This document shows positions 44,530-53,895 of a stretch of 64,000 bases of DNA, one piece after another (the first letter of the stretch is position 1; every line of letters begins with the position of its first letter). Under the pieces are notes generated by a model. The model was not told the origin of the DNA and ran no database searches. It saw only the letters and a list, made by a program, of their open reading frames with translations. The position numbers and the translations under genes were made by a program. The stretch is from Jiella sonneratiae. Lineage in GTDB: Bacteria; Pseudomonadota; Alphaproteobacteria; Rhizobiales; Rhizobiaceae. The stretch lies in contig NZ_JAFMPY010000001.1 in assembly GCF_017353515.1 (NCBI RefSeq), positions 1-64,000 on the forward strand, read 5' to 3'.

Positions 44530-45285
44530 TCACGCCGCCTCGCCGATGATCTGGCCGTAGCCCTCGTTCTCGAGCTGGAGCGCGAGGTCCTTGTCGCCGG
44601 ACTTGATGATCCGGCCCTTGTAGAGGACGTGGACGGTGTCCGGCACGATGTAGTCGAGCAGCCGCTGGTAGTGGGTGATGACCAGGAAGGAACGCTCCGG
44701 CGACCTGAGCGCGTTGACGCCGTCGGCGACGATCTTCAACGCGTCGATGTCGAGGCCGGAATCGGTCTCGTCCATGATGCAGAGCTTCGGCTCGAGCAGC
44801 GCCATCTGCAGGATCTCGGCGCGCTTCTTCTCGCCGCCGGAAAAGCCGACGTTCAGGGGACGCTTCAGCATCTCGGCGTCGATCTTCAGTTCGCCCGCGG
44901 CCGCCTTCACCTTGCGCATGAAGTCCGGCGTCATCAGCTCGGCCTCGCCGCGCGCCTTGCGCTGGGCGTTCAGCGCCGTCTTGAGGAAGGTCATGGTGGC
45001 GACGCCGGGGATCTCCAGCGGATACTGGAAGGCGAGGAACAGGCCGGAGGCGGCGCGCTCGTCAGGCTCCATCTCGAGGATCGACTCGCCGTTGTAGAGG
45101 ATGTCGCCCTCGGTCACCTCGTAGTCGTCGCGACCGGCGAGGATGTAGGAGAGCGTCGACTTGCCGGAGCCGTTCGGCCCCATGATCGCCGCGACCTCGC
45201 CGTCCTTCACCGTCAGGTCGACGCCCTTAAGGATCTCGGTGCCCTCGTCGGCGACCCGGGCGTGGAGGTTCTTGATTTCCAGCAT
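44530..45285 (-). CDS. sufC: Fe-S cluster assembly ATPase SufC
   Basis: SufC is the ABC-type ATPase driving the SufBCD scaffold. Walker A is GPNGSGKST, the signature is LNVGFSGGEKKRAEIL and Walker B is LCIMDETDSGLD, followed by the H-loop VITHYQRLL. The length is 251 aa. It lies between a small coiled-coil gene and sufD on the minus strand. No sufB lies directly upstream; about 1.2 kb with a GIY-YIG gene and repeats separates them. Confidence 0.97.
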   Translation of the reverse strand: MLEIKNLHARVADEGTEILKGVDLTVKDGEVAAIMGPNGSGKSTLSYILAGRDDYEVTEGDILYNGESILEMEPDERAASGLFLAFQYPLEIPGVATMTFLKTALNAQRKARGEAELMTPDFMRKVKAAAGELKIDAEMLKRPLNVGFSGGEKKRAEILQMALLEPKLCIMDETDSGLDIDALKIVADGVNALRSPERSFLVITHYQRLLDYIVPDTVHVLYKGRIIKSGDKDLALQLENEGYGQIIGEAA

Positions 45286-45299
45286 GGTTCTTATCGTCT

Positions 45300-45527
45300 C
45301 TAGCTTCGTTCGTGTCGTCGTCGGGCCGTGCCGGGATCGGCGGCCTCTGCGGTCTCAATCTCTTCGAGGAGCCTCTGGCGTTCGGCCTGCAGCGCCTCGA
45401 TCTCGTCGGCGACAACCGGATCGGTCATCGAACCCTCGGCCGTCGCCACCGCCTCGCGGGCCTGTTCGATCCGGTCCTCGATCTCGCGAAGGCGGGCTTG
45501 GCGGGGGTCCCAAAGGTCGTTCGTCAT
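45300..45527 (-). CDS. Small predicted coiled-coil protein upstream of sufC
   Basis: The 75-residue frame lies 14 bp upstream of sufC on the same strand. It is charged and helical: RLREIEDRIEQAREAVATAE and VADEIEALQAERQRLLEEIE have the heptad spacing of a coiled coil, with few aromatic residues. GGGGTT precedes the ATG at a modest distance. The opposite-strand frame at this place is less regular. It is either a small suf-linked protein or a frame maintained by chance. No family is recognised. Confidence 0.45.
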   Translation of the reverse strand: MTNDLWDPRQARLREIEDRIEQAREAVATAEGSMTDPVVADEIEALQAERQRLLEEIETAEAADPGTARRRHERS

Positions 45528-45661
45528 CGGTAACCCCAGAAGCCGTCGTGCGTGAACATCTCTTTACGGTCTACCGCTCCATGCTCCCGAATTGTCATTC
45601 CCTCGCCATGCTCCCCCAGGCTGCAGCAATCCAGACACGCTGGTCGGACAGATTTTTCGGC

Positions 45662-45695
45662 GGCAGTAGATCCTCGGGACAAGCCCGAGGATGAC
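45662..45695. repeat. REP-like hairpin a (forward)
   Basis: The motif is GGCAGTAGAT followed by CCTCGGG-ACAAG-CCCGAGG and ATGAC. The stem is seven base pairs and the loop ACAAG. It is inverted relative to the copy at 45831-45864. Confidence 0.85.
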
Positions 45696-45830
45696 GACAC
45701 GAATTTTGACCGATGCGTCCCTTCGGGCTCAATGCCTCAACTGAAAATCGCGGCCTCAACTGCAAATCTGAGCCTCATCTCCCAATCTGGTCGCCGCCTC
45801 GAACGTCGTGGGCAGCTGCCTGAATGGGCC

Positions 45831-45864
45831 GTCATCCTCGCCCTCGTGGCGAGGATCTACTGCC
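45831..45864. repeat. REP-like hairpin b (reverse)
   Basis: The reverse complement reads GGCAGTAGAT, stem CCTCGCC with GGCGAGG, loop ACGAG, then ATGAC. The stem differs from hairpin a at paired positions, keeping base pairing. It lies just beyond the stop codon of the GIY-YIG gene. Confidence 0.85.
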
Positions 45865-45867
45865 GTC

Positions 45868-46230
45868 TCAATTGTAGTCGTCCCATGCCCGCGTGTTCGG
45901 ATGCGGACGATAGGCATTGTCGTTCTCGTCAATCCGCTCGAACAGGTCCAACCAGCTCGGATTGAACTCCTCGATCAGATTTTCCTTCCACTGGCGGCGG
46001 TAACGTTTCAACGATTTTTCCCGTCGGATCGCCAGGACGATGTTCGGATGCCATTCGTACCAGACGAGATTCTTCAGATTGTATTTCGACGTGAAGCCCT
46101 TGGTCGTCTGGTTGCGATGCTCCCACGCGCGGTCCTTCAGATCGCTCGTCACGCCGATGTAGATCACGCCCCGCGGCTTGTCCGACATCATGTAGACGAA
46201 GCCGGTCACCTCGACGCGCCGTCGCCGCAA
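45868..46230 (-). CDS. GIY-YIG nuclease domain protein (small, YhbQ-like)
   Basis: The 120-aa protein has the GIY-YIG fold markers: FVYMMSDKPRGVIYIGVTSD in place of the GIY-YIG pair, the conserved arginine in LKDRAWEHRN, the YEWHPNIVLAIRREKSLKRY core and a metal glutamate in ENLIEEFNPSWLDL. Stand-alone copies of this type act on DNA and are often multicopy in Alphaproteobacteria. Here it interrupts the suf operon between sufB and the coiled-coil/sufC pair, and REP-like hairpins lie at both ends. The start may be the ATG or an internal one nearer TGFVYMM. Confidence 0.9.
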   Translation of the reverse strand: MRRRRVEVTGFVYMMSDKPRGVIYIGVTSDLKDRAWEHRNQTTKGFTSKYNLKNLVWYEWHPNIVLAIRREKSLKRYRRQWKENLIEEFNPSWLDLFERIDENDNAYRPHPNTRAWDDYN

Positions 46231-46280
46231 GCATGATGGCAGGTCGACGTCGGAACCACCTTTTCCTTCCGTTCCAGGCC

Positions 46281-46314
46281 GTCATCCTCGGGCCTGTCCC
46301 GGGGATCGGCTGCC
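46281..46314. repeat. REP-like hairpin c (reverse)
   Basis: On the reverse strand it reads GGCAGCCGAT, stem CCCCGGG with CCCGAGG, loop ACAGG, then ATGAC. One stem position is a non-Watson-Crick pair, so this copy is somewhat decayed. Confidence 0.75.
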
Positions 46315-46375
46315 GCTGCGGCGATGGACCGTTTCAGGAGCACCTCCTTCGGCGACGCTTCTGGCACACCGGCCT

Positions 46376-46407
46376 CAGTAGATCCTCGCCACAAGGGCGA
46401 GGATGAC
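46376..46407. repeat. REP-like hairpin d (forward)
   Basis: It reads AGTAGAT, stem CCTCGCC with GGCGAGG, loop ACAAG, then ATGAC. It combines the stem of hairpin b with the loop of hairpin a. Confidence 0.85.
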
Positions 46408-46466
46408 GAAACCGAGCGGCCCGCGCCTTTCGTCAGCGACACAGCGACGTCATCCCCGTCATTGCC

Positions 46467-46500
46467 GTCATCCTCGGGCCTGTCCCGAGGATCTACTGCC
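46467..46500. repeat. REP-like hairpin e (reverse)
   Basis: The reverse complement reads GGCAGTAGAT, stem CCTCGGG with CCCGAGG, loop ACAGG, then ATGAC. Together with hairpin d it forms an inverted pair about 60 bp apart, just downstream of the sufB stop. Confidence 0.85.
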
Positions 46501-46542
46501 ATCTCAACGCAGAAGCATTTTTATCCCGGCCTGCATCCGTCA

Positions 46543-48063
<1,521 letters not shown>

Positions 48064-53462: not shown

Positions 53463-53540
53463 GCGTCGACCGCGCGGGCGGCGCCCTGCGCCTGACGTCG
53501 CAGACGACGTCGAACGGTCGGACGCTCACGGCCCAGCCTC

Positions 53541-53566
53541 GTCATCCCGGCCCCCGAGCCGGGATC
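53541..53566. repeat. REP hairpin in duplication unit 1
   Basis: It reads GTCATCCCGGC, loop CCCCGA, GCCGGGATC: stem CCCGGC with GCCGGG. It belongs to the same superfamily as the hairpins near 45.7-46.5 kb. Confidence 0.85.
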
Positions 53567-53669
53567 ATTCCTCTGTGCTGGATTTCACCCTCGACGGCGG
53601 CGGCCACATCGTCTTGCAACGCTGTCGCAGCTTCGGCGATTTGGAATGCGACGCTCACGGCCCAGCCTC

Positions 53670-53695
53670 GTCATCCCGGCCCCCGAGCCGGGATC
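53670..53695. repeat. REP hairpin in duplication unit 2
   Basis: Identical to the unit 1 hairpin, as expected of the tandem duplication. Confidence 0.85.
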
Positions 53696-53777
53696 CATTC
53701 CTCTGTGCTGGATTTCACCCTCGACGGCGGCGGCCACATGCTCTTGCAACGCTGTCGCAGCTTCGGCGATTTGGAAT

Positions 53778-53803
53778 GGATCCCGGGTCAAGCCCGGGAT
53801 GAC
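53778..53803. repeat. REP hairpin closing the duplication
   Basis: It reads GGATCCCGGG, loop TCAAG, CCCGGGATGAC. It is inverted relative to the unit hairpins and shares loop and flanks with hairpins a and d near 46 kb (loop ACAAG, tail GATGAC). The pair of inverted hairpins forms a BIME-like unit. Confidence 0.85.
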
Positions 53804-53895
53804 GAAACTTCCATCGCCGCGCTTGTTCTGATCCGAGAGCGTCGACGTCCGGCTCAGCTCGAAATCTGCGCCGGGTCGGTCCGAGCCCACATCCC

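Follow-up and report, generated by a model that had tools for sequence, protein, structure and literature searches.

The window analysed here, the whole stretch of 64,000 nucleotides at positions 1 to 64,000 of contig NZ_JAFMPY010000001.1 of Jiella sonneratiae, carries a small gene for a GIY-YIG nuclease within its suf genes (Table 1). The first-pass annotation had stated that this gene parts sufB from sufC, with two hairpins past its stop and three past its start, and that the hairpins alternate in orientation; both statements hold, the second except for the choice of which strand is called forward. All five hairpins are CGTC-tagged REPs. Folded as single-stranded DNA, each has a 9-bp stem that opens with AT, a 5-nt loop (z from -3.35 to -5.89) and an unpaired CGTC tag at one end, the tag of the hairpin at 46280 being partly paired in the fold; an example of a second class in the window, class C, folds with an 8-bp stem and a 6-nt loop. 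At three mismatches or fewer the hairpin pattern is matched 12 times in the window (four of the matches being the same hairpins on the opposite strand and three located elsewhere) versus 0.67 expected, and none of 100 shuffles reaches 12. Searched against Rfam at gathering scores, the whole window yields tRNA only. The small ORF between the nuclease gene and sufC shows, among nine genus relatives, a weak match of 40% in one and none in two; its product has a weak likeness, below cut-off, to the ABC_tran_CTD domain.

Table 1. Features of the sufB-sufC region and the window, and the loci compared with them
Feature	Position or loci	Strand	Basis or remark
sufC	44530..45285	-	ORF; query for finding junctions in relatives
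Small ORF between GIY-YIG gene and sufC	45300..45527	-	70-85% identity in 6/9 genus relatives
CGTC-tagged REP hairpin, type A	45670..45696	-	Pattern match and fold
CGTC-tagged REP hairpin, type A	45830..45856	+	Pattern match and fold; CGTC end faces away from gene
GIY-YIG nuclease gene	45868..46209	-	PF01541; start GTG at 46209 (homology); ORF open to TTG at 46230
CGTC-tagged REP hairpin, type A	46280..46306	+	One pattern mismatch; left half of inverted pair
CGTC-tagged REP hairpin, type A	46382..46408	-	Right half of inverted pair 46280-46408 (129 bp)
CGTC-tagged REP hairpin, type A	46466..46492	+	Pattern match and fold
sufB	46543..48063	-	ORF; adjoins sufC in relatives
CGTC-tagged REP hairpin, type C	53540..53565	+	Part of partial tandem copy of neighbouring pair
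Inverted pair (REPIN-like) of type C hairpins	53669..53804	.	Class of another GIY-YIG paralogue of the same genome
Suf-resident loci	Window 45285-46543; L037, L118, L127, L196-L198, L200-L202, L204, L205, L285		
Second-subfamily loci with own hairpins on both sides	L013, L017, L021, L023, L277, L278, L279, L282		Exception: L280

The reverse-strand ORF at 45868-46230 matches the GIY-YIG profile (PF01541) at E 2.2e-12, and alignment with homologues suggests the GTG, rather than the TTG, as the start of the gene. In an alignment of 42 sequences including the window protein, Y13, Y24, G26, R34, H38, E71 and N90 are invariant, among them the residues of the GIY-YIG superfamily, i.e., the GIY and YIG tyrosines Y13 and Y24 together with R34 and E71; some of the invariant residues are taken to be catalytic. 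No domain besides GIY-YIG was found, and NCBIfam gave nothing above cut-off. By sequence, the best solved relatives are the UPF0213 proteins 1zg2 and 1ywl (E 1.4e-5 and 0.007, respectively), and UPF0213 proteins have been placed in the Slx1 family (PMC1564403). Like these proteins and the non-eukaryotic Slx1 cluster, the window protein is a stand-alone minimal GIY-YIG domain. Unlike that cluster, which is described in the same source as being without the C-terminal Asn, the family of the window protein (hereafter the first family) has a near-invariant GVTSDL motif across the 42 aligned sequences and an invariant C-terminal Asn, if, as we infer, N90 is the position meant there.

The genome holds four genes of the first family, the other three being 52-53% identical to the window gene, and all four have hairpins on both sides with a stem different for each: ATCCTCG in class A, ATTCTCGGG in class B, ATCCCGG in class C and an imperfect CGTCATCCTCGGCCCG...GGGGATCC in class D, the last identified by eye and not found by the perfect-stem detector. 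Classes B, C and (by eye) D also have the CGTC tag, and the tail is CCA in classes B and C and mostly CTACTG in the type A copies of this genome. Cognate REPs flank the gene as they do in the REPtrons of RAYT genes, with CGTC in place of GTAG.

The hairpins are by no means confined to the genes. Of the 29 strict type A copies in the 5.15-Mb genome, many of them in opposed pairs with a spacing of about 100 bp, four are at the sufB-sufC locus and 25 elsewhere. Close copies of class B number 15, and four of these lie within about 210 bp of their own gene. We fetched 13 opposed pairs of 128-131 bp from sites in this genome, having excluded three more detector pairs judged to be chance. Their ends are conserved, and their middles vary between sites and are common to tandem neighbours. 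Many hairpin pairs of the genome have no GIY-YIG gene nearby. By eye, no consistent target-site duplication was seen around the 13 pairs, a 6-base direct repeat lying outside the ends of one (L180), nor did an exact target site emerge from the sites compared. The four class B pairs L177-L180 are all asymmetric, continuing CCAGGGGC at one end and CCAGAGAT at the opposite end, which would fit a difference between left and right ends.

Like a REPIN, then, the inverted REP pair is dispersed in the genome, and at one junction it is present or absent across the genus. In the window, a class C pair lies between tyrS and an AsmA-like gene (both named by reading ORFs); the pair is also found in G002, degenerate in G006 and, by eye, as a remnant in G004, and G003, G005, G007, G008 and G009 have gaps of 46-136 bp without it, the unreadable G001 being left out of the comparison. 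Most genomes of the genus thus have only a decayed class C pair here or none. This pattern may reflect insertion or loss, which look alike by sequence among relatives too diverged to display an exact empty site.

The genes themselves tell a different story. Of the 10 genomes in the genus set, eight hold the first family, G008 has a distant subfamily only, and G003 has neither. Class D orthologues being left out of the scoring, orthologues keep both their place and their hairpin class in five genomes for B, four for C and three for A, and hairpin class thus tracks gene lineage rather than genome. Hairpin numbers go with the genes as well. Type A copies number 29, 62 and 49 where the cognate gene is present versus 15, 7, 14, 1, 2, 31 and 0 where it is absent; type B copies 15, 25, 27, 100 and 27 versus 0, 47, 12, 10 and 2; and type C copies 36, 31, 34 and 45 versus 0, 33, 20, 13, 19 and 12. 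Counts tend to be higher with the cognate gene in 20/21, 21/25 and 23/24 pairwise comparisons for A, B and C (exact one-sided p 0.017, 0.040 and 0.0095, respectively, with ancestry ignored). G003, the only genus genome without any GIY-YIG match, has zero hairpins of types A, B and C; the exceptions are G005, with 47 type B copies, and G009, with 31 type A copies, both without the cognate gene.

The first-pass annotation had proposed a REP-associated GIY-YIG element able to insert between operon genes. Its link of gene and hairpins stands, and the jumping of the gene itself is not supported as worded there. Since three lineages lie at orthologous sites and the first-family paralogues fetched within the eight genomes are only 44-73% identical, we see no sign that the gene has jumped recently; within the genus, jumping was not seen for lineages A, B and C. 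In the genus the genes are fixed in place, and the dispersing part is the 130-bp inverted hairpin pair. Nor does the gene behave like an insertion sequence, there being no recent near-identical gene copies in the first family (fetched paralogues at most 73% identical in the eight genomes). Carriage by plasmids is rare (31 of 72,556 plasmid records, several being as large as a chromosome), and none of 50,697 phage records gave a tblastn match at E 1e-5. A role in restriction-modification or phage defence, or a phage gene, was likewise rejected, three proteins giving zero PADLOC and zero PHROGs matches.

Turning to other genomes, we found the first family at E 1e-15 in 134 of 387 alphaproteobacterial genomes. 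From these a class set of 60 loci in 60 genomes was assembled, comprising the best match reported per genome, with at least 7 kb of left flank, and the first 60 by E-value, so that the set is biased to strong matches. Within 250 bp of the gene there were 97 tagged hairpins (3.25/kb) versus 43 at 3-7 kb (0.094/kb), a ratio of about 34. Control tags near the gene reached 0.10/kb for GCAG, 0.23/kb for CTGC and 0.10/kb for GTAG; CTGC is thereby slightly raised over about 0.09/kb, far less than CGTC. At least one CGTC hairpin lay within 1 kb in 48 of the 60 loci, with hairpins on both sides in 28, and 12 were without a perfect tagged hairpin in that range. Furthermore, in an intergenic control that relied on a crude ORF caller, a hairpin was present in 62 of 103 gene-adjacent segments versus 18 of 350 far ones (p 2e-32), still about a 12-fold density, and intergenic bias as the whole cause was rejected on these counts.

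The association also extends beyond the class. In a named set, the best 80 of 586 confirmed stretches, drawn from alpha-, beta- and gammaproteobacteria, 'Deltaproteobacteria', Nitrospirota, Campylobacterota, Binatota and FCPU426, a hairpin lay within 300 bp in 63 loci, on both sides in 37, and 17 had no perfect tagged hairpin in that range. Density in these best 80 of 586 was 3.26/kb near the gene versus 0.15-0.17/kb at 1-3 kb, and two control tags together gave 0.45/kb versus 0.11-0.16/kb. Hairpins with GTAG or other tags were rejected as the gene's partner, with no peak comparable to that of CGTC in either set. Further paralogues in multi-copy genomes show a weaker association, 10 of 20 having a tagged hairpin on neither side within 400 bp. 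Hairpins hence flank this GIY-YIG family generally, in the 60 class genomes and the 80 named loci (best of 586), and the suspected REP-GIY-YIG link proves real, general and class-specific on the combined evidence of density, intergenic control and matching stems (see below).

Several single loci deserve mention. In a Neisseria gonorrhoeae record (L283), 11 CGTC hairpins surround the GIY-YIG gene in a stretch of about 1.4 kb. On a Planktothrix plasmid (L286) the gene has an MmeI-like enzyme gene on one side and DISARM drmA on the other, and CGTC hairpins were not found. Two 50-kb stretches of S. meliloti carry too few hairpins to reveal insertion polymorphism between strains; for one GIY-YIG gene there (L289:14693), the surrounding 50 kb contain no perfect CGTCA-tagged hairpin.

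At the level of whole genomes, one hairpin pattern occurred in 43 of 134 gene-bearing versus 18 of 253 gene-less genomes among the 387 (p 7e-10, ancestry ignored). The 91 gene-bearing genomes without this pattern may have other hairpin classes. Of the 18 gene-less genomes with hairpins, 14 are without any GIY-YIG match at E 1e-5, and two hold about 50 copies; such genomes resemble those in which REPs are left after RAYT loss, but another enzyme could also act in them.

We also compared the sufB-sufC junction itself. Thirty suf junctions were examined and two unreadable ones left out; in the remaining 28, from this genome and its relatives, the gene is present in four, all four with hairpins. 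The gene-free junction expected in relatives was found in 24 of the 28, with a clear CGTC hairpin in one and a chance-like one in one more. Three of the 60 class loci, several Rhizobiaceae and Azospirillum lipoferum 4B also have the gene between sufB and sufC, making this junction a recurrent home of the family in distant alphaproteobacteria; at L205, one of the suf-resident loci, tagged hairpins are missing near the gene. On a protein tree, suf residence takes five changes, four of them forced by well-supported branches, and it therefore probably arose more than once; the tree has few columns, its bootstrap is not settled, proteins with stops or odd lengths were excluded, and the changes may be losses.

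The layout of the hairpins around the gene was analysed in a pooled set of 160 loci (the 60 class loci, 20 further paralogues and the 80 named loci, best of 586), in which at least one locus is doubled (L084 = L196). In the 64 two-sided loci, left and right stems agree at 0.935 versus 0.641 when shuffled, a value reached by none of 2000 shuffles. Additionally, CGTC faces outward in 127 of the 181 nearest hairpins of the 160 loci (p 6e-8), and both nearest hairpins face outward in 38 of the 64. The unit of gene plus flanking hairpins has a median length of 410 bp in 46 loci.

A distant GIY-YIG subfamily, made up of matches at E 1e-6 to 1e-15, has hairpins of its own. None of its nine loci has a CGTC hairpin within 1 kb, and eight carry on both sides a CTCATCC-type motif (CTCATCCTGAG...AGGATGAG type), which has no occurrence within 500 bp of a first-family gene at any of the 60 class loci. 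In G008, two contigs with a gene of this second subfamily (L013 and L018) share 3.2-kb stretches that are 99.97% identical, through either a recent duplication or an assembly artefact.

The hairpins of the window resemble a family of repeats already described. In the part available of their paper, Di Nocera et al. (2013) report a superfamily of REPs, apparently without a dedicated transposase, that have a CGTC tag, an 8-9 bp stem starting with AT, a loop of 4-5 nt, an arrangement in opposed pairs and a CCA tail, occur mostly in alphaproteobacteria, and include the Rickettsia repeats RPE-4 and RPE-6 and neisserial dRS3, the last being CGTC-1 of the Neisseriae (PMC3733652). The window hairpins share the tag, the AT-opening stem of 8-9 bp, the short loop and the opposed pairs; unlike the repeats as described, the type A tail is mostly CTACTG, not CCA, and an enzyme is proposed here. 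The string 'GIY' is absent from the available text of that paper, and no link between GIY-YIG and REPs appears, among the matches listed, in titles and abstracts of the open-access literature excluding preprints and subscription papers. As far as the available parts of the sources go, RAYT genes are vertically inherited, have not been seen on plasmids and are accompanied by more REPINs where the gene is present (PMC8049555, PMC8266576, PMC3733652).

What we observe directly is co-location, class matching, orientation bias, co-occurrence of gene and hairpins, dispersed near-identical pairs and, at one junction, a pair that some genomes have and others lack. From these observations we consider that nuclease and hairpins probably form a single system that would mobilise hairpin pairs and be the GIY-YIG equivalent of the REP/RAYT 'REPtrons'. 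The partnership between the nuclease and the CGTC REPs is well supported, because the pattern is RAYT-like (fixed sites, rarity on plasmids, zero phage records, more hairpins with the gene) and the key residues are invariant. As in REPIN-RAYT systems (REPtrons, TnpA-REP), tagged hairpins flank a small enzyme gene, each enzyme has its own hairpin class and inverted pairs disperse; unlike them, the enzyme is a GIY-YIG nuclease (PF01541 only), not an HUH/Y1 tyrosine transposase, and the tag is CGTC, not GTAG. That the nuclease cuts and mobilises the pairs is what we infer. The gene would encode a long-resident, vertically inherited enzyme, the CGTC-tagged hairpins would be its class-specific recognition sites, and the inverted pairs, some 130 bp long with CGTC facing outward, would be non-autonomous dispersing elements. 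The nuclease would bind the hairpin as a single strand or cruciform and cut beside either the CGTC tag or the tail; host replication or repair would then copy the released pair to another intergenic site. A covalent tyrosine-DNA link like that of a RAYT is not to be expected of a GIY-YIG enzyme, and therefore joining would need host enzymes.

Obviously, other relations between gene and hairpins have to be weighed. The gene might be a passenger or homing-like element settling in existing REP clusters, with the hairpins as targets spread by another enzyme. It does sit inside hairpin clusters, has occupied sufB-sufC in several tree branches, and leaves 25 of 29 strict copies elsewhere in the genome and 14 of 61 hairpin-bearing genomes without it. 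We nevertheless think this unlikely, given that three paralogues hold their own hairpin class at a fixed site across the genus, that hairpin number goes with gene presence, that CGTC faces outward, and that the describers of the repeats, in the available part of their text, found no dedicated transposase (PMC3733652). With GIY-YIG homing endonucleases the gene shares the catalytic fold and a link to mobility; unlike them, it has the GIY-YIG domain only, is hairpin-flanked and is vertical in the genus. Less probable still is a housekeeping, Slx1-like nuclease for hairpin or branched DNA, protecting replication at REP clusters and kept adjacent for local dosage or feedback control: the placement of its closest solved relatives in the Slx1 family (PMC1564403) and the vertical retention in the genus would suit it, but many hairpin pairs have no gene nearby, and the matching left and right stems, the outward layout and the dispersed pairs would go unexplained. 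Ordinary terminators or mRNA stabilisers, their link to the gene a by-product of intergenic bias, are already disfavoured and very improbable, for although the hairpins are intergenic, control tags are mildly raised near the gene and stabilisation of mRNA has been hypothesised for REPs (PMC3733652), the roughly 12-fold density persists in the intergenic control, control tags rise far less than CGTC, and the second subfamily has a different hairpin class.

The reading of nuclease and hairpins as one system bears on a question that Di Nocera et al. (2013), in the part available, left open, namely which enzyme, if any, spreads CGTC REPs (PMC3733652); with a specific small candidate enzyme, their spread becomes directly testable. 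We would give an even chance to the broader proposal that GIY-YIG nucleases form a second, independently evolved class of REP-mobilising enzymes, with at least two subfamilies, each with its own hairpin superfamily, acting by cut-and-repair without a covalent intermediate and explaining the CGTC REPs of several phyla, neisserial dRS3 among them. If true, REP systems would have arisen twice, with unrelated chemistries, and a gene common among alphaproteobacteria (134 of 387 genomes), often annotated just as 'GIY-YIG nuclease family protein', would gain a function.
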